Below the pieces are notes generated by a model. It saw only the letters and a list, made by a program, of their open reading frames with translations. It searched no databases and was not told the origin of the DNA. Position numbers and translations under genes: made by a program. From Streptomyces sp. cg36 (GTDB lineage Bacteria > Actinomycetota > Actinomycetes > Streptomycetales > Streptomycetaceae), in the NCBI RefSeq assembly GCF_041080675.1, contig NZ_CP163520.1, positions 7,407,501-7,471,500 on the forward strand: a stretch of DNA of 64,000 nucleotides, given 5' to 3'. Shown here piece after piece: positions 7,047 through 14,900 of this stretch. Positions within the stretch are counted from its first letter, which is position 1. The number at the start of each line of letters is the position of its first letter.

Positions 7047-9839
7047 TCAGACGGTCGCCAACAGCACCTCCAGCGCGTTCGCCGTCTCCGGGTGACGGCC
7101 GAGCAGCGGTACGCCCCCGGGTGCCGGCGCCTCCCACGCGTCCCCGCATCCCAGCAGGTCCGCCAGCGCGTCGCACGCCGTGGGATGCGCGGCGAGCAGT
7201 GCGAGCCCCGGGGCGTCGGAGGCGGGCCGCGCGGTGGAGGTGCCCGCCGTGAGCGGCTGGGCCCGCCACGGCGGCACCCACGCGTCCAGTGCCGCCAGTC
7301 GGCCGGGATAGATCCGCCCGGCCTCCCGGATCAGGAGCGGAGCCAGCTCCGCGCCGCCCGCGCGCAGCGTGGTGATCAGGGTCGGCAGCCAGGGCAGGAG
7401 GACCGGGTCCGGCAGTCGGCCGAAGGCGTTCGACACCGCCTCGACCACGAAGTCCGTGAGGCCCGGCACCGGCTCCAGGGCCTGCACGAAACCGCTGAGA
7501 TAGCGCGGATAGGCGGGCAGCACCATCGGATTGGCCAGCAGCTCGTCGCACCGCTCGCGCAGCTCGGCGCGGGAGACCCGGCCGAGCTGGGTCTGGGCGG
7601 CCCAGAGCAGCGCCGTCTTCGACGGGTCGTCCGGATGCGACTGGGCGACCGCCAGCTCCAGCTGGGTGCGGTCGCAGCCGAGCGACAGCGCCAGGCCCTC
7701 CATGCTGAACAGGAAGCCCAGCATCGCCGCCACCTGGCGGACCGTGGCGTCCTCGTCGGTGAACGCCGTCGGCAGCAGCGTGCAGTAGTGCGCGTAACCG
7801 GTCTTGACGAAGGACTCGATCCACGGCGGCAGCAACGGCTCACTGGTGCGGTAGTACGCCAGCAGTCGGCGCACCCGGCGCAGCACCTCGGGGGCGCCGT
7901 CCACACCGCGTTCGGCCGAGAGGACCTCCAGCGCGCGCGTGCCGAGTTCGTCGGAGAGACGGCGGCTGCGCAGATACAGGGTCGCGTCCTCGACGGCTTC
8001 GAGGACGGTCGCCGCCGTGGCCTGTGGTGCGTACGCCGTGCGGCGCAGGCGCTGCTCCAGGACCTGCTCGATGCTCACCCCCTCGTACCCCAGCTCGATG
8101 AGCGCCCGTTGATGGGTGCCGAGCGCCAGGTCCCAGGACTCCTGGATCGGCTGCTCGCCCAGCTTCCGCTCGCCCATGATCGGGCGCGCGGCGCCCTGCG
8201 GCATCAGATGGCGCAGCATCCACAGGACGTCGGAGCAGCGCCCCAGCTCCGGCCGCCCCGCCACATCCAGCAGCGCGCGCTGCACACCGCGCTGCTGGAG
8301 CTTGAGGCCGAGCGGGGCGAGCCGGTCGTGGACGTCCCGGGCCAGGGGCGGCAGGGCGTCGTAGCCGACCTGGCCGATCCGGTCGCCGCCCATCATGATC
8401 TCCACCAGGCGGCGCACATCGCGCCGGCCCGGCACGGAGTCCTTCTCGATGCAGGTGACGGCCGCGTCCTGGAAGTCGTACGGCGTGGGCCTGGCCCGGT
8501 CGCGCATCCCGGCCAGCAGGATCGACGTCTCGAACACGGCGATGGCGTCGGCGGTGGAGGCCAGATAACCGTTGCGCCGTGCGGCCCGCACGATCTCCAC
8601 CGACCAGCCGAGCAGTTCGGCCTCGTCGAGCGGGTCCAGCACGGGCGGCCGGTGCAGGAAGCCCGTCAGCCTGTCCGAGGGGGCCGCCGGTGGCGCTGCC
8701 GGGGGCATCGCCCTGGCCGCGCCCTTCTTGGCGCTCGGCTTCTTCGCGCCCGCCTGCCCCGCCAGCCGGTACGGCTCGACCCGGGTGCGCCGCAGGTTCT
8801 TCGCCCAGAGCGTCGCGGCGATCGACACCGAACCCCCGGCCAGTCCGAACTGGGCCTCGATCGCCGCATGGCTGGAGGGGATCAGACCGTGCTGCCACTT
8901 GGTGGCGGTGCGCGGGCCGATCTCGTACGTGTCGCTGCCCCCGACCCCGAACTCCGCGACCCGGCTGGCCGCGTGGAAGGCGCCGCACACGTAGAGGCAG
9001 TCGGCGGGGTCCGCGCCGCTCGCCGCGAGATGCTCGCGCATCCTGGTCCACATGTAGCGCTCGCGGTCCTCGTCCACCCGTACCCGGTGGCTGTCGCCGG
9101 GTGCGAGATGCCGGAAGAGGCTGCCGATCAGGAGCATGACCTGGCGGTAGGTGTCGTGGTCGCTGTCGCCCAGGGGCAGTTCGACGTACTGGTGCCACCA
9201 CTCCGACCAGTGCCGCACCTTGCCGTGCCGCAGCAGGTGCTCCTCCAGTTCGGCGAAGCGCGGGCGCAGGTCGCCGATCTCCACACCGACCGCGTCACCG
9301 TGCAGCGCGGCCTCCTCCTCGGCGGGCGGCGCGTCCGGACCGGCCGGCTCGGGGGAGTGCGCGGCGCGCTCGTCCCACTGGAAGACGTGGTCGGAGGAAC
9401 GGTCGACCAGGACCAGTTCGACCCCCGGGGTGTCCAGGGCGTACGCGATCGCCTGGTACTCCGCCGACGCCTCGGTGATCGGCGCGACCACGGAGAGCGG
9501 CGACCAGTCGGCCGGGAAGCCGTCGACCTCGGTCGCGAACGCCTGGACCGCCACCGGCAGTCGGCAGTTGCGCAGTTCGGTCAGGAGCGGCGCCATGTCC
9601 TCGCACAGCTCCAGATAGACCACCTTGGGCCGCTTCTCGCGCAGCCTGCGCGCCATCGCTAGCGCCGAGGCGGGCGAGTGGTGGCAGACGGGGAAGATCT
9701 CCAGCGGCTCGCGCACCGCCCGGTCGACGTCCTCGACGATGCCCAGGAGGATGCCCTCCAGGGCGTCGGGCCCGTCCGCGAACGCCGTCGCGGCCTGCTG
9801 CAACTGGCCGCGCAGCGCGTCGAAGGTCTCGTCCCGCAT
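7047..9839 (-). CDS. DUF5682 family protein, last gene of the SWIM-vWA-MoxR cassette
   Basis: A 930-residue cytoplasmic protein of the uncharacterised DUF5682 family. The N-terminal third holds the conserved block: IFPVCHHSPASALAMARRL (His53-His54), VVYLELCEDM (Glu77/Glu80), LVDRSSD and CGAFHAASR, a pattern of buried His and Glu residues resembling TraB/ChaN/Tiki-type putative metal hydrolases (inference). A disordered Ala/Pro/Lys linker (around 365-390) separates it from a long helical C-terminal region without recognisable motifs. The ATG at 9839 has AGGAG 5 nt upstream; an upstream ATG at 9902 overlaps the MoxR stop as ATGA but has no ribosome-binding site and adds 21 unconserved residues. 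It sits directly behind the MoxR gene, so the two are probably translated from one message. Biochemical function unknown. Confidence 0.8.
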   Translation of the reverse strand: MRDETFDALRGQLQQAATAFADGPDALEGILLGIVEDVDRAVREPLEIFPVCHHSPASALAMARRLREKRPKVVYLELCEDMAPLLTELRNCRLPVAVQAFATEVDGFPADWSPLSVVAPITEASAEYQAIAYALDTPGVELVLVDRSSDHVFQWDERAAHSPEPAGPDAPPAEEEAALHGDAVGVEIGDLRPRFAELEEHLLRHGKVRHWSEWWHQYVELPLGDSDHDTYRQVMLLIGSLFRHLAPGDSHRVRVDEDRERYMWTRMREHLAASGADPADCLYVCGAFHAASRVAEFGVGGSDTYEIGPRTATKWQHGLIPSSHAAIEAQFGLAGGSVSIAATLWAKNLRRTRVEPYRLAGQAGAKKPSAKKGAARAMPPAAPPAAPSDRLTGFLHRPPVLDPLDEAELLGWSVEIVRAARRNGYLASTADAIAVFETSILLAGMRDRARPTPYDFQDAAVTCIEKDSVPGRRDVRRLVEIMMGGDRIGQVGYDALPPLARDVHDRLAPLGLKLQQRGVQRALLDVAGRPELGRCSDVLWMLRHLMPQGAARPIMGERKLGEQPIQESWDLALGTHQRALIELGYEGVSIEQVLEQRLRRTAYAPQATAATVLEAVEDATLYLRSRRLSDELGTRALEVLSAERGVDGAPEVLRRVRRLLAYYRTSEPLLPPWIESFVKTGYAHYCTLLPTAFTDEDATVRQVAAMLGFLFSMEGLALSLGCDRTQLELAVAQSHPDDPSKTALLWAAQTQLGRVSRAELRERCDELLANPMVLPAYPRYLSGFVQALEPVPGLTDFVVEAVSNAFGRLPDPVLLPWLPTLITTLRAGGAELAPLLIREAGRIYPGRLAALDAWVPPWRAQPLTAGTSTARPASDAPGLALLAAHPTACDALADLLGCGDAWEAPAPGGVPLLGRHPETANALEVLLATV

Positions 9840-9898
9840 GGTGCTCCTCTCGTGTGTTCCGCCGCCGTCCCGCAGCGCGGCCGGATGGTCCGCGCCGC

Positions 9899-11020
9899 TC
9901 ATGACAGGGTGGCGATCGCGTCGCGTCCGGCCTCCAGGAACTCCGGCCAGGCGCCGCCCTCTTCCTTGCCGCGCGGCTCGACGACCCCGTGCAGATACTT
10001 GTTGAGGATCGCCAGGTCCTCGGGCTCGCGGCGGGCCAGCGAGCCGACGAGCGAGGTGGCCAGGGTGTGGGCGGTGAGGGCGCGCTCGCCGAAGAAGTTG
10101 CTGTGCAGGATGGCGTCTTCGAGTACGCCGATCTGCTCGGCGGTGGACAGCGCGGACTCCAGCTTCTCGTCGTCGCTGCCCGCCGCTGCCGCCGAGGCAC
10201 GCAGATCGGCGAAGCTCTGGAGCAGCACGTCGAGGAGCGTCGGCGGCACGTCCAGCTCGATCTGGTGGCGGCGCAGGAGCTCCTCGGTGCGGAAGCGGAC
10301 GATCTCGGCCTCGCTCTTCTTGTTCGTCACCACCGGGATGCGGACGAAGTTGAAGCGGCGCTTGAGCGCCGAGGACAGGTCGTTGACGCCCCGGTCGCGG
10401 CTGTTGGCGGTCGCGATGATGGAGAAACCGGGCTGGGCGAAGACGATGTTGTCGTTGCCGTCGCTGTTCAGCTCGGGGACCGAGATGTACTTCTCGGACA
10501 GGATCGAGATCAGCGCGTCCTGGACGTCGCTGGTGGAACGGGTGAGTTCCTCGAAGCGGCCGATGGCGCCGGTCTCCATCGCGGTCATGATGGGGGAGGG
10601 GATCATCGACTCCCGCGACTGGCCCTTGGCGATGACCATGGACACGTTCCAGGAGTACTTGATGTGGTCCTCGGTGGTGCCCGCCGTGCCCTGCACCACC
10701 AGGGTGGAGTTGCGGGAGATCGCGGCGGAGAGCAGCTCGGCGAGCCAGCTCTTGCCGGTGCCGGGGTCACCGATCAGCAGCAGACCGCGGTCGGAGGCCA
10801 GGGTGACGATGGAGCGCTCGACGAAGCTCCGGTCGCCGAACCACTTCTGTGAGACCTCCCGGTCCAGGCCGTCGGCCCGCTCGGAGCCGAGGATGAACAG
10901 CCGGACCATCTTGGGCGACAGACGCCAGGAGAACGGCTTGGGGCCGTCGTCGATGGACTCCAGCCAGTCCAGCTCTTCGGCGTACTTCAGTTCGGCGGGG
11001 GCGCGCAGCAGGTCGGACAT
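9899..11020 (-). CDS. MoxR-family AAA+ ATPase
   Basis: A 373-residue AAA+ protein of the MoxR clade, which acts with vWA partners as chaperone-like remodelling machines. Walker A GDPGTGKS is at 84-91; the Walker B position reads GRFEELTR (154-161); sensor 1 is IIATANSRDRG with Asn206; the arginine-finger/second region KRRFNFVRIP follows. The ATG at 11020 begins the homologous N-terminus (MSDLLRAPAELKYAEEL), preceded by only a weak AAGG. It lies between the vWA gene (185-bp gap) and the DUF5682 gene, all on one strand. A long frame running through from 13303 is only a GC-driven extension. Cellular target unknown. Confidence 0.85.
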   Translation of the reverse strand: MSDLLRAPAELKYAEELDWLESIDDGPKPFSWRLSPKMVRLFILGSERADGLDREVSQKWFGDRSFVERSIVTLASDRGLLLIGDPGTGKSWLAELLSAAISRNSTLVVQGTAGTTEDHIKYSWNVSMVIAKGQSRESMIPSPIMTAMETGAIGRFEELTRSTSDVQDALISILSEKYISVPELNSDGNDNIVFAQPGFSIIATANSRDRGVNDLSSALKRRFNFVRIPVVTNKKSEAEIVRFRTEELLRRHQIELDVPPTLLDVLLQSFADLRASAAAAGSDDEKLESALSTAEQIGVLEDAILHSNFFGERALTAHTLATSLVGSLARREPEDLAILNKYLHGVVEPRGKEEGGAWPEFLEAGRDAIATLS

Positions 11021-11172
11021 GGCGAAGCCTTTCTGGGCGTGACAAAGGGAGGGAGGAGTGAACGAGGAGCGAAAAAGGAGGAGCGAGAGGCGCGGATGAG
11101 GTCTGGCGGTGAGCCGGAGCAGACGTGCCGCCGGGCGGGCGCACCGCTCCGATGGCGTACGTGGCCGGGCTC

Positions 11173-11192
11173 GCGGGGCCGCGATGCCCCGC
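11173..11192 (-). terminator. Small hairpin in the gap between vWA and MoxR genes
   Basis: Arms GCGGGGC (11173-11179) and GCCCCGC (11186-11192) with a 6-nt loop begin 13 nt after the vWA stop on the minus strand. It could attenuate read-through, so MoxR-DUF5682 may have its own promoter in the 185-bp gap; no promoter was recognised. Confidence 0.35.
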
Positions 11193-11205
11193 CCGCTGTG
11201 TCCCG

Positions 11206-12693
11206 CTAGGCCAGGAACGTCTTGAGCTCGGTGACGAGCTTGCGGATGTGCCCGGAGAGGACCGGTGTGCCGAGGTCCTTGAAGCGCTCGCGGAACCACG
11301 GGTTGACGCTGCCGCGCCCGGAGCTGGTCACCGAGCCGACCGGTATGAACTTGGCGCCGGAGCGGTGGATGGCGGCCATGCTCGCGAAGAGCGGTTCGGT
11401 CTGCCACTCGTAGAAGTCGGAGATCCACACCACGACGGTGTTGCGGGGCTCGGCGATCTTCGGTTGGGCCAGCGCCATGGCCACCGTGCCGTCCGTGCCG
11501 CCGCCCAGATTGGTGCGGAGCAGGGTTTCGAAGGGGTCGTGCACCCATGGTGTCAGGTCGAGCGCCTGGGTGTCGTAGGCGATCAGATGGACGTCCACCT
11601 TGGGCAGTCCCGCGAAGATCGAAGCCAGGATCGTGCAGTTGACCATCGAGTCGACCATCGAACCCGACTGGTCCACGACGACGATCAGCCGCTGGGGCGT
11701 CGTCTTGCGCGCCGTGTGCCGGTAGTAGAGGCGGTCGACGTACAGACGCTCCTCCTCCGGGCTCCAGTTGGTGAGGTTCTTCCAGATCGTGCGGTCGAGA
11801 TCGAGGTTGCGGTACACCCGCTTGGGCGGCACCGACCGGTCCAGCGCGCCTACGGTGGCCTTCTCCACCTGGGTGCGCAGCACCTCGGCGACCTCGTCCA
11901 CGAATCGGCGGATCAGGGCCTTGGCGTTGGCCAGGGCCACGCCCGAGAGGTTGTTCTTGTCCCGCAGCAACTGCTCGATCAGCGACATGCTCGGGGTGAG
12001 CCGGGCGGCGAGCTGGGGGTCGGCGAGCACCTCGCGCAGATGCATCCGCTTGATCAGGTCCGCCTCGATGGAGCCCAGCTCCGGGCCGATCGACGGGATG
12101 AGCCGGCTCAGGTCCGGCGCCGGGCCGCGCCCGCCGGTTCCGGTCGGGCTGACGCCCCCGCCGCTCGCCCCCGCGCCCGTACCCGCTCCCCGGCCGCCGC
12201 GCAGCTCGCCGGGCCGGCAGCCCAGCGCGCGCTCCAGCCAGCCCGCGTCCGACTGCCAGCGGGCGAGCTGTCCGGCGCTGACATTGCCGCTGCCGGAGGC
12301 GAAGACATTGAGCAGTACCTTCGACACCAGGGCCGCGCGCCGCACCTCCTCGGCCCGGTCGCGTCCGCCCTCCTCGCCGTCCCCCTCCGCCGGGGAAGCC
12401 GGTGTCATCAGACCGTCGAACTCGGCGGCCAGCTCCGGATGGCGCTGCACGATCGAGTCGATGGACGCCTGCGGGTCGAGCAGCGCGGTGGGCAGGCCCA
12501 TGTCCTCGACGACGGCGAGGCCGGCCGCTTCGAGGGCGGGCTGCTCCTCTTGGTCGAAGAGGCGGGCCAACAGCCGCCAGTACAGGGCCTGTCGGCGGTT
12601 GGCGTGGGGATCGGCCTCGGGGACACGGACGCTGGGGCCGCCGTCGATCGACGGCTCCGGCACGGCCGTCCGTCCGGTGGTGGTGTCGGTCAT
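11206..12693 (-). CDS. vWA domain protein of the MoxR cassette
   Basis: A 495-residue cytoplasmic protein. The helical N-terminal half (30-330) includes a Gly-rich disordered linker at about 163-192. The von Willebrand A domain occupies about 333-480 with a complete MIDAS: DQSGSM (Asp341, Ser343, Ser345), GGGTDG supplying the Thr, and WISDFYEW supplying the Asp. An intact MIDAS implies metal-dependent ligand binding, the usual arrangement for vWA partners of MoxR ATPases. The ATG at 12693 overlaps the stop of the upstream SWIM gene by 4 nt (ATGA), indicating translational coupling. No signal peptide or membrane segment. Confidence 0.85.
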   Translation of the reverse strand: MTDTTTGRTAVPEPSIDGGPSVRVPEADPHANRRQALYWRLLARLFDQEEQPALEAAGLAVVEDMGLPTALLDPQASIDSIVQRHPELAAEFDGLMTPASPAEGDGEEGGRDRAEEVRRAALVSKVLLNVFASGSGNVSAGQLARWQSDAGWLERALGCRPGELRGGRGAGTGAGASGGGVSPTGTGGRGPAPDLSRLIPSIGPELGSIEADLIKRMHLREVLADPQLAARLTPSMSLIEQLLRDKNNLSGVALANAKALIRRFVDEVAEVLRTQVEKATVGALDRSVPPKRVYRNLDLDRTIWKNLTNWSPEEERLYVDRLYYRHTARKTTPQRLIVVVDQSGSMVDSMVNCTILASIFAGLPKVDVHLIAYDTQALDLTPWVHDPFETLLRTNLGGGTDGTVAMALAQPKIAEPRNTVVVWISDFYEWQTEPLFASMAAIHRSGAKFIPVGSVTSSGRGSVNPWFRERFKDLGTPVLSGHIRKLVTELKTFLA

Positions 12694-14672
12694 TTCCGCA
12701 GCAGCCTTCCCGCTCGCTCCCGCAGGACGGCCACGGCGTCGGTGGCCGCCTTCTCGGCCTTGACTCCCGCCTTGTCGGTGGTGCCCCCGGCCCAGGCCGC
12801 CGCGTGCACGGCGACGGGCTTCTTCCGTACGGTCGTCTCGACGGCCAGGGGCTGGAGGCAGTACGTGCCCGCGTCCCAGCGGAGCAGGCCGATGCACGCG
12901 CCGGACGCCGCGACCGTCTTCGGCGTGAGCGGGCCCGCCGTCGGGATCCGGTCGGTGTCGACCAGGAGGGGACGGCCGGTGACGGTGAAGCGCAGGGTCT
13001 CCTCGCCCGGGGCGGCACCGTCGGTGTGTCCCTCCGCCACCTCGACCGCGTACCCCTCCAGGAAGACCGGTACCGCGATGCGTGCCGGGTGCCGGTCCAG
13101 CGGCGCGGTGGCCGCGTCCGTGGCGGCCGGCAGGGCGACGCGCGCGGTGGCGAAGGCGTCGGCGGGCTCGCCGGGGCGGGCCAGTTCGTCGCTCCAGAGC
13201 AGGTCGCCCCCGTCGGTGAGGGGCATGCCGAGGAGGTGCATCGAGCGGCCTTCGGCGACGGCCGAGAGCAGCGACATGTGGGGGCGCAGCAGCTGCCAGA
13301 CACCGGCCCCCACCGCCGTGTCGGGTTTGGGGACGGAGACGCTCGCGCGCACCAGACGCGGCGCGGACCCGTCGGCGGGCTCGAACACCGCGTGCACCTG
13401 GGCCTGCGCGGCGGTGGCGTGCTCCTGGAGATCGACGGCGAGCGGGAGGAGGCGCCCGGTGGCGGTGGTGTGCGCGCCCGCGCCCAGAGCGCCGGGCAGT
13501 GTCAGGATCACGGCCCGCGCCCACAGATCGCCCCAGCGGCGGGCCGGCACCCGCTCCAGGGCCGCACCCGGGCAGGAGGCGGCGAGCTCGTTGGAGAACC
13601 CGTCGAGCAGGGTGGAGAGGCGGCGCAGGGCCGGGTCCGGGAGCATCGCGGAGACGATCTGCGCGGCGCCGGAGACCACGTCGTGGTCGATGCCCTGCCA
13701 GCCCGCCCGTGCGAGGTCGCAGAGCCAGGCGCGGGCGGCGGCGAGGAGGTTGGCGGACCGGTCGTCGGCGGTCGTCGGCGGCGTGTCCGTACCGCGTGTG
13801 CGGCCGGTGAACTCGTCGAGGCGGCCGACCACGGCGTCGTGGATGGAGCCGAGCAGCGCGGTGCGGGCGGCGGCGAGCAGCACGAAGTGGTCCTCGACCG
13901 CGGCGCCCGCCGCCGCCTTCTCGGCCGCCTCGGCGACCCGGGACGCCAGCGGCGTGCCCGCGACGGCCCGGGCGAACTCCGACAGGTCGGCGGCCTGGGC
14001 GGGTTGGGGGCGCAGCAGCCCCGACACGAGCGCCCGGTCGAAGGCGTTGACCGCCGCCAGCGCTTCGGTGAGTCCGTCGACGGGGTCGCGGAACGCATCG
14101 GCGCTCGCACCCGGACCCGGGTCGCTTGAACCCGGCTCACTCGCATCCGGTTCGCCCGAAGGCGCCGGTGCGGTCACCGCCCTGGTCGGCGGGAACCAGT
14201 GCATCTCGGGCAACGGCGAGGTGGTCGGAGGCAGTTCGAGATACGAGAGATGGCGCAGGAACCGGCTGAAGACCGGTGCGGCGGCGGTGGTGTCGCCCTG
14301 CTCCGGCCAGGCGGCGGCCATCGTCTGTGCGATGCCCTGGGCGTCCGCCGCCTCGGGTGCGGTCTCGACGCGCAGATAGCGGGCGACGCGTTCGGCGCCG
14401 TACTGGAGGACGGCCTCGGTGATGAGTGCGCGGATGTGGTTGCAGAAACCGCCCCGAGCACCGCCGCAGGGACGGTTGTTGTTGGTGCTGCAGGTGAACG
14501 CGTAGCTGCCGGCCGCGACCGACGAGACGTAGACGCGCTCGATGTCGGAGCCGCTGGACACCACGCCCTGGAGGCGTCCGTCGGCCAGTTCCACGAAGGG
14601 GACCTTGGCCAGCTTGCGCGGTCGCGCGGGCGTCGTCACCCGCGCCGTGCTCGACCTCTCCCAGTCGGACAA
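12690..14672 (-). CDS. SWIM-like zinc finger protein, first gene of the MoxR-vWA cassette
   Basis: A 660-residue protein whose N-terminus carries a variant SWIM zinc site: Cys61, Cys69, Cys77 and His79 in CSTNNNRPC...FCNHIRALI. SWIM domains chelate zinc and bind nucleic acid or protein. The rest (about 150-660) is alpha/beta and helical with no catalytic motif recognised, plus a Ser/Gly/Pro-rich linker near 180-200. The probable start is a TTG at 14672 (MSDWERSSTARVTTPARP) with AGGAG about 9 nt upstream; the ATG at 14708 has no ribosome-binding site. Its stop overlaps the vWA start. As first gene it probably sets expression of the four-gene unit; the 228-bp region upstream is shared with the divergent propeller gene. 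Confidence 0.75.
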   Translation of the reverse strand: MSDWERSSTARVTTPARPRKLAKVPFVELADGRLQGVVSSGSDIERVYVSSVAAGSYAFTCSTNNNRPCGGARGGFCNHIRALITEAVLQYGAERVARYLRVETAPEAADAQGIAQTMAAAWPEQGDTTAAAPVFSRFLRHLSYLELPPTTSPLPEMHWFPPTRAVTAPAPSGEPDASEPGSSDPGPGASADAFRDPVDGLTEALAAVNAFDRALVSGLLRPQPAQAADLSEFARAVAGTPLASRVAEAAEKAAAGAAVEDHFVLLAAARTALLGSIHDAVVGRLDEFTGRTRGTDTPPTTADDRSANLLAAARAWLCDLARAGWQGIDHDVVSGAAQIVSAMLPDPALRRLSTLLDGFSNELAASCPGAALERVPARRWGDLWARAVILTLPGALGAGAHTTATGRLLPLAVDLQEHATAAQAQVHAVFEPADGSAPRLVRASVSVPKPDTAVGAGVWQLLRPHMSLLSAVAEGRSMHLLGMPLTDGGDLLWSDELARPGEPADAFATARVALPAATDAATAPLDRHPARIAVPVFLEGYAVEVAEGHTDGAAPGEETLRFTVTGRPLLVDTDRIPTAGPLTPKTVAASGACIGLLRWDAGTYCLQPLAVETTVRKKPVAVHAAAWAGGTTDKAGVKAEKAATDAVAVLRERAGRLLRK

Positions 14673-14900
14673 CGCACCATCTCCTAAGCAACGAAAAGGG
14701 AGACCCACGCCAGAGCGGCGGGGACATCAACGAACTTACTGGCGACCACTGACAACGCCCGGCCGACCGCGTTCCGCCGCGGTCCAGCGCGAGTGGACCG
14801 GCGCTCCGGGGCGGCCGGATAAGCCTGGTCCAGGGCGTCCCGGCAGGCGCGGGCGAGCCCCGCGGACCCGTACGGACCAGCGCACCACGGAGGTTGTCCC

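Follow-up and report, generated by a model that had tools for sequence, protein, structure and literature searches.

Machines that pair a MoxR-type AAA+ ATPase with a vWA protein are best known for metalloenzyme maturation and from conflict systems. Such pairs remodel their client proteins. In the MoxR-vWA pair NorQD, a twist of a linker has been proposed to permit metal insertion (PMC13036017), and YehL is a named subfamily of MoxR proteins (PMC3893208, PMC11432383). In Deinococcus deserti, a five-gene operon "of unknown function", ddrTUVWX, opens with a SWIM gene and closes with one for a CoxE-like vWA protein; it is IrrE/DdrO-dependent, bears an RDRM motif, and contributes four genes to the published table of most radiation-induced genes (PMC5552922). 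As the flattened table of that paper reads, the operon and its motif occur in 4 of 7 Deinococcus species, D. radiodurans not being among them, while a DUF4132 gene of D. radiodurans is reported to be up on DdrO depletion (PMC8533742). Here, we describe a four-gene cassette of Streptomyces sp. cg36, encoding a SWIM-like fusion protein, a vWA protein, a MoxR ATPase, and a DUF5682 protein, which lies in a stretch of 64,000 nucleotides (contig NZ_CP163520.1, 7,407,501–7,471,500; hereafter, the window). The main new result is an exact RecA-NDp/PafBC promoter before the cassette. We propose, with a probability of roughly 0.6, that the cassette is a damage-inducible operon for a nucleic-acid-targeted MoxR-vWA remodelling machine.

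The published RecA-NDp consensus, tTGTCRgtg-8-TannnT (PMC5656591), describes a promoter type which was previously known in Streptomyces (PMC5087735) and is used by PafBC (PMC6789036), a regulator that single-stranded DNA activates in vitro in the mycobacterial system (PMC11804915). Scored as TTGTCRGTG-N8-TANNNT, it is matched exactly 60 bases 5' of the TTG start of the SWIM-like gene, i.e., close upstream, as is characteristic of the PafBC/RecA-NDp regulon; this is the sole exact site in the window, and shuffled sequences gave none (0/100). The same promoter constitutes the conserved block in the upstream alignment of Streptomyces loci that share the gene order of the window, SWIM-vWA-MoxR-DUF5682 (type A). 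Among 72 type A loci with upstream DNA, 64 of them actinobacterial, an exact site was present in 27, a site with at most one mismatch in 39 (39/64 of the actinobacterial loci), and a site with at most two mismatches in 48. The control, 1,440 random windows from the same loci, gave 2, 3, and 8, respectively, both exact matches being real sites hit again. All eight non-actinobacterial type A loci showed three or more mismatches. The position of the promoter is kept as well, since 23 of 23 exact sites in 74 relatives (L026–L099, 1.43 Mb) are located 90–260 bases before the first aligned SWIM residue.

Across the whole genome, 32 exact sites were counted, and the reversed pattern used as a control gave none. 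They include one before recA and those of both DUF5682 cassettes of this genome, the second of which carries its site in a divergent promoter between SWIM-DUF5691 and MoxR-DUF5682-vWA genes. Six open reading frames (ORFs) downstream of such sites were scanned for families, and five displayed families compatible with DNA metabolism, with none found for the sixth; the families encountered are RecA, DNA polymerase III gamma/tau-type, O6-methylguanine methyltransferase, HD phosphohydrolase, and DEAD helicase. By eye, some of the other sites precede genes with no evident role in DNA metabolism. Additionally, the genome encodes a tandem pair of WYL proteins, which are candidates for PafB and PafC. 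The 32 sites represent a candidate PafBC regulon, despite the remark in a later S. venezuelae paper that an initial search suggested that the M. smegmatis motif is not conserved in that species.

In three other cassette classes, some of the loci have a RecA-NDp site at the head of the operon. Loci L002–L012 contain exact sites in 8 of 11 cases; L003 and L006 lack the promoter region, and L011 has the region and no exact site. In a further class (L020, L164–L173, L180, and L183), 6 of 13 loci have an exact site on the MoxR strand, about 6 kb before that gene, and in L166, a DUF4132 gene is the first after the site. Stretches with the E. coli order MoxR-DUF5682-vWA-YehQ (type B) have exact sites in 2 of 11 cases (L018 and L019), directly before the DUF4132 gene; no such site was found in L062 and L177, where the type B operon head is visible, and the head is cut in several other type B stretches. 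No LexA boxes were found before the E. coli genes at the stringency used. In Clostridium ganghwense (L104, 6771–6784), an exact Gram-positive LexA-type box precedes a type B DUF4132 ORF by 96 bases; it is a single case among the 12 stretches looked at, and a hint that in another phylum, a different regulator may exert damage control.

The damage link of the cassette is thereby well supported at the level of sequence, from which we infer that the operon is induced by damage in this Streptomyces. An earlier sequence-only reading of the window had left the role of the cassette between defence, stress, and cofactor insertion; the promoter, together with the published Deinococcus operon (PMC5552922), narrows this choice toward DNA-damage stress.

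The genes form a conserved unit. In 149 actinobacterial genomes profiled with cut-offs of E ≤ 1e-30 for MoxR, E ≤ 1e-8 for DUF5682, and E ≤ 1e-15 for vWA, a limited number of candidates being scored per genome, YehL-type MoxR was found at 15 places, DUF5682 at 15 loci (16 rows, one locus being split), and vWA at 15. The three adjoin one another at all 15 places, in the same 10 genomes, and repeated adjacency of the families across genomes, which had been set beforehand as the test of the sequence-only reading, was thus confirmed. The profile of the type A SWIM gene matched in 2 of the 149 genomes. Within Streptomyces, type A looks accessory, being assigned by score class in 7 of 37 same-genus genomes.

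A scan of named genomes with the MoxR alignment confirmed at least 587 stretches, of which the best 80 were analysed. Near MoxR, these encode DUF5682 in 80 cases, vWA in 79 (not in L100), and a SWIM-gene product in 78, the exceptions being L036, which starts at a contig edge, and L100; in L041, L083, and L084, where the contig starts there, only the second part of the SWIM gene is visible. The MoxR and DUF5682 genes are mostly contiguous, with an extra ORF between them in L081 and L105. Type A accounts for 70 of the 80 loci, and its records are actinobacterial along with cyanobacterial, myxobacterial/deltaproteobacterial, planctomycete, Herpetosiphon, and one proteobacterial. Type B accounts for 5, and type C (L094–L097) for 4, in which SWIM-domain proteins are located near MoxR. 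Three type C SWIM proteins were scanned, one of which scored above the BRCT cut-off and one just below, and two of which contain pentapeptide repeats. In the wider family, the DNA-type domains BRCT, WGR, and SWIM are recurrent, as are pentapeptide repeats. In Gemmata sp. (L097, 1566–8244), five proteins encoded in tandem each have a SWIM domain close to the C-terminus; in those read by eye, it mostly follows pentapeptide repeats, and it is possible that the proteins form a set of interchangeable recognition parts.

Several individual loci deserve mention. In Salinispora pacifica (L062, 6833–21106), a few kb separate a type A from a type B cassette, and a WGR-DUF4132 fusion heads the latter. 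On the large plasmid p1 of Streptomyces fungicidicus (L193, 4566–12025), a type A cassette is divided into five annotated genes and carries an exact RecA-NDp site; its neighbours are an N-6 DNA methylase gene and a DNA-binding gene of type IV secretion. On a plasmid of Hymenobacter radiodurans (L191, 9742–12034), DUF5682 is annotated as three overlapping pieces with no vWA annotated in the stretch, which may reflect decay of the cassette or errors in the sequence. Phage record MT835988.1, a 14-kb "Bacteriophage sp." from human faecal samples, encodes a MoxR relative (12861–13928) that shares 42% identity with the MoxR of the window. Within 7 kb of type A loci, no ORF emerged as a convincing neighbour conserved across genera; several of the top neighbour clusters, which resembled common transporters or shadows antisense to the SWIM gene, were discarded.

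The four ORFs of the cassette were present when the sequence was re-read (Table 1). All of them are read on the minus strand, in agreement with the sequence-only reading, as is the ATGA overlap by which the vWA start at 12693 runs into the SWIM stop ending at 12690. The second overlap it had described, between MoxR and DUF5682, holds if DUF5682 starts at 9902 (951 aa), but with the 930-aa start at 9839 that the same reading had used, a gap of about 60 bases results; the DUF5682 residue numbers given here refer to the 930-aa form. The vWA and MoxR genes are spaced by 185 bases. The best 120 of 2,454 protein relatives are nearly all named Streptomyces, with identities of up to 88%, and Rfam gave no matches across the window.

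Table 1. Positions of the cassette genes, their parts, and the promoter in the 64,000-nucleotide window
Feature	Position	Strand	Details and basis
SWIM-like fusion gene	12690..14672	minus	660 aa; TTG start at 14672 behind GGAG
CoxE-type vWA gene with MIDAS	11206..12693	minus	495 aa; PF05762 and alignment
YehL-type MoxR AAA+ ATPase gene	9899..11020	minus	373 aa; AAA_5 match, YehL identity, alignment
DUF5682 gene	7047..9902	minus	951 aa (930 aa if start is 9839)
RecA-NDp (PafBC-type) DNA-damage promoter	14733..14755	minus	exact match; position conserved in relatives
Zinc-binding motif C61-x7-C69-x7-C77-x-H79, SWIM variant	14436..14492	minus	sequence; type C SWIM profile
Second part of SWIM fusion, about residues 199-660	12693..14078	minus	separate gene in most relatives
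DUF5682 N-terminal alpha/beta domain	8805..9839	minus	H53 H54, E77, R259 E260, G286-x-x-H289; conservation and model
HEAT-like helical solenoid of DUF5682, residues 589-844	7308..8075	minus	

The MoxR protein matches Pfam AAA_5 (E 2.7e-37) and is 41% identical to YehL over 342 residues, which corresponds to the full-length similarity of the YehL subfamily; the vWA protein matches VWA_CoxE (PF05762, E 1.2e-29) and is 31% identical to YehP. The Walker A described for MoxR is indeed complete, its residues being invariant in 8 of 8 aligned sequences, and so is the MIDAS of the vWA protein, in which DxSxS and the later Asp are invariant in 13 of 13 aligned sequences; in its GGGT stretch, the window has Thr and some relatives Asn.

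In the SWIM-like protein, the predicted ligands Cys61, Cys69, Cys77, and His79 are all present, and the pattern C-x7-C-x7-C-x-H is also displayed by Streptomyces relatives. A canonical SWIM zinc finger (PF04434) has CxC...CxH spacing and a Pfam match, neither of which applies to the window protein, for which hmmscan against Pfam gave no matches at E ≤ 1; because of this spacing and the lacking Pfam match, the name SWIM-like is used. Its profile does match the SWIM domains of type C (E 3.1e-16), in which the spacing varies in the same way. While the zinc motif of the sequence-only reading stands, its view of a single gene does not, since the ORF is a fusion of two genes that are separate in 68 of 72 scorable loci. 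Residues 398–615, in the second part, possibly form two OB folds. The corresponding second protein of type A weakly resembles a combined set of YehQ C-termini and type C proteins (E 0.00097 across 281 columns, with controls at 0.2 and 0.25); no relationship to DUF5691 was detected (E 0.2).

In a whole-genome search with the PF18934 profile, the DUF5682 protein scored 95.9 bits against a cut-off of 26, unlike the Pfam hmmscan of the protein, which gave no matches at E ≤ 1; judged by these scores, it is a divergent family member. The predicted structure (mean pLDDT 86.3) comprises an alpha/beta N-terminal domain and a helical HEAT-type solenoid. The protein keeps the HH, E, RExxM, and GxxH motifs, and in 59 sequences, H53, H54, R259, and G286 are invariant, E77, D146, E220, and H289 are kept in 58, and E260 in 55. 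In their order, HH - E - RExxM - GxxH, these motifs are reminiscent of the TraB/Tiki/ChaN/erythromycin-esterase group, of which weak echoes are found in Pfam. Thus, of the idea that DUF5682 is a TraB/ChaN/Tiki hydrolase, the conserved HH/Glu block was substantiated, but not the family kinship, as similarity to TraB/Tiki-type profiles is not significant (E 0.11–0.13; unrelated controls 0.31–0.63). Among the open-licence literature listed, no functional study of yehLMPQ, DUF5682, or DUF5691 was found and DUF5682 is not mentioned.

Taken together, these results sustain the view that a MoxR-vWA pair, a zinc module of the nucleic-acid type, and the conserved HH/Glu block of DUF5682 belong to one functional unit. 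A DNA-targeted remodelling machine is the best fit because of the damage promoter, the recurrent DNA-type domains, and the conserved catalytic-looking block. Given the DNA-damage promoter and the kinship with gene sets of E. coli and radiation-resistant Deinococcus, the cassette probably produces an energy-driven machine acting on damaged DNA or on proteins attached to DNA. Single-stranded DNA arising after damage would activate PafBC, which would switch on the operon from its RecA-NDp promoter. The zinc-binding SWIM-like domain, together with the fused second domain and its possible OB folds, may then recognise damaged or single-stranded DNA or a protein bound to it. By analogy with its family, the vWA protein would couple this recognition to the MoxR ATPase ring, which would pull or twist the target, as NorQ does on NorD. 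DUF5682 may be the effector or a dedicated client, activated at or delivered to that place.

A more specific version of this machine, which we regard as unlikely, is a bacterial counterpart of the SPRTN/p97 route of eukaryotes, in which the SWIM- and OB-like parts would find DNA with a stuck protein, MoxR-vWA would unfold that protein, and DUF5682, as a metal-dependent hydrolase or protease, would remove it. If so, yehLMPQ and ddrTUVWX would be uncharacterised members of one system for the clearance of DNA-protein crosslinks. It is rather unlikely, although somewhat less so, that the cassette is a metal-insertion chaperone in which MoxR-vWA matures DUF5682 or another client as in NorQD, damage induction only raising the supply of a repair-linked metalloenzyme. 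Metal insertion is known for MoxR-vWA pairs (PMC13036017), the vWA protein is of the CoxE type, and the invariant His and Glu positions of DUF5682 could bind a metal. Yet this metal binding is putative, and none of the cassette genes encodes a known metalloenzyme. NorQD, moreover, is not known to include counterparts of the SWIM and second proteins.

It appears quite unlikely that the cassette is a damage-triggered phage-defence or conflict system resembling the effector-bearing MoxR-vWA ternary systems. The existence of related conflict systems (PMC7159879), the patchiness of type A in the genome profiles above (2/149 and, by score class, 7/37), and its presence on a plasmid are consistent with this idea, but the third component differs from the four described ternary-system classes, the type A proteins are conserved across phyla rather than variable, and PADLOC gave weak, generic matches only. 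Furthermore, in E. coli, 5,162 of 5,426 complete genomes carry yehLMPQ with a length coverage of at least 80%, which is unlike a typical patchy phage-defence island; being nearly core, the E. coli set makes defence less likely, at least for that branch. Very unlikely, finally, is a general stress or cofactor cassette, e.g., for CoxDE-like maturation, whose placement in the damage regulon would be incidental to DNA. YehL and CoxE families act on enzymes elsewhere (partly described in PMC3893208 and PMC11432383), and there is molR/yehF lore on molybdate (PMC8533742); this explanation is at odds with the recurrence of BRCT, WGR, and SWIM domains in the family and with damage-type promoters under two regulators, PafBC here and the published DdrO (PMC5552922).

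Compared with the described MoxR-vWA ternary conflict systems (VMAP, iSTAND, FtsH, and beta-propeller), the cassette shares a MoxR-vWA core with further components (PMC7159879), whereas no Pfam family of these components was above the cut-off in the four cassette proteins, bpMoxR reaching 13.2 bits against a cut-off of 27; "SWIM" and "yeh" are absent from the main text of that paper. NorQ/NorD and other MoxR-vWA pairs likewise combine an AAA+ MoxR with a vWA partner but differ in their other partners and in regulation, and the cassette lacks a known metalloenzyme client. By sequence, the MoxR profile has its nearest solved relative in midasin (Rea1; E 5e-21). Midasin is also a remodeller combining AAA+ with MIDAS; however, it is a single giant protein acting on ribosome precursors. 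As a DNA-targeted remodelling machine, the cassette would extend the MoxR-vWA machines to the DNA-damage response.

The cassette is, by sequence comparison, related to E. coli yehLMPQ, which clusters the same four families; the MoxR of the window shares the context of the YehL subfamily, i.e., clustering with DUF5682, vWA, and SWIM genes. The E. coli set differs in its order, MoxR-DUF5682-vWA-SWIM, and is preceded by a WGR gene (yehF), a pseudogene, a DUF4132 gene, and yehK, and the DUF5682 and SWIM proteins of the window are very divergent from it. With ddrTUVWX, the cassette shares a SWIM gene in first place, while the CoxE-like vWA gene in last place and the reported damage induction of the operon (PMC5552922) extend the likeness; the Deinococcus type differs in its gene order, its IrrE/DdrO control, and its DUF5691 gene, which is absent from the window cassette. 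On a plasmid of D. taeanensis, the order SWIM-DUF5691-AAA-(small ORF)-DUF5682-vWA places MoxR, DUF5682, vWA, and SWIM in one operon, and an RDRM consensus is matched there only with 5 mismatches of 17, shortly before the SWIM gene. Over 414 columns, SWIM proteins of this type align with the one encoded in the second cassette of the Streptomyces genome (E 2.1e-52); that cassette, with its SWIM and DUF5691 genes, is the closer match to the Deinococcus type. The published SWIM/CoxE-vWA operon, the D. taeanensis set, and this SWIM match make it a strong inference that ddrTUVWX is the same system as the cassette. Three gene sets without an assigned function, the Streptomyces cassettes, yehLMPQ, and ddrTUVWX, would thereby be joined into one system whose role in DNA damage can be tested.

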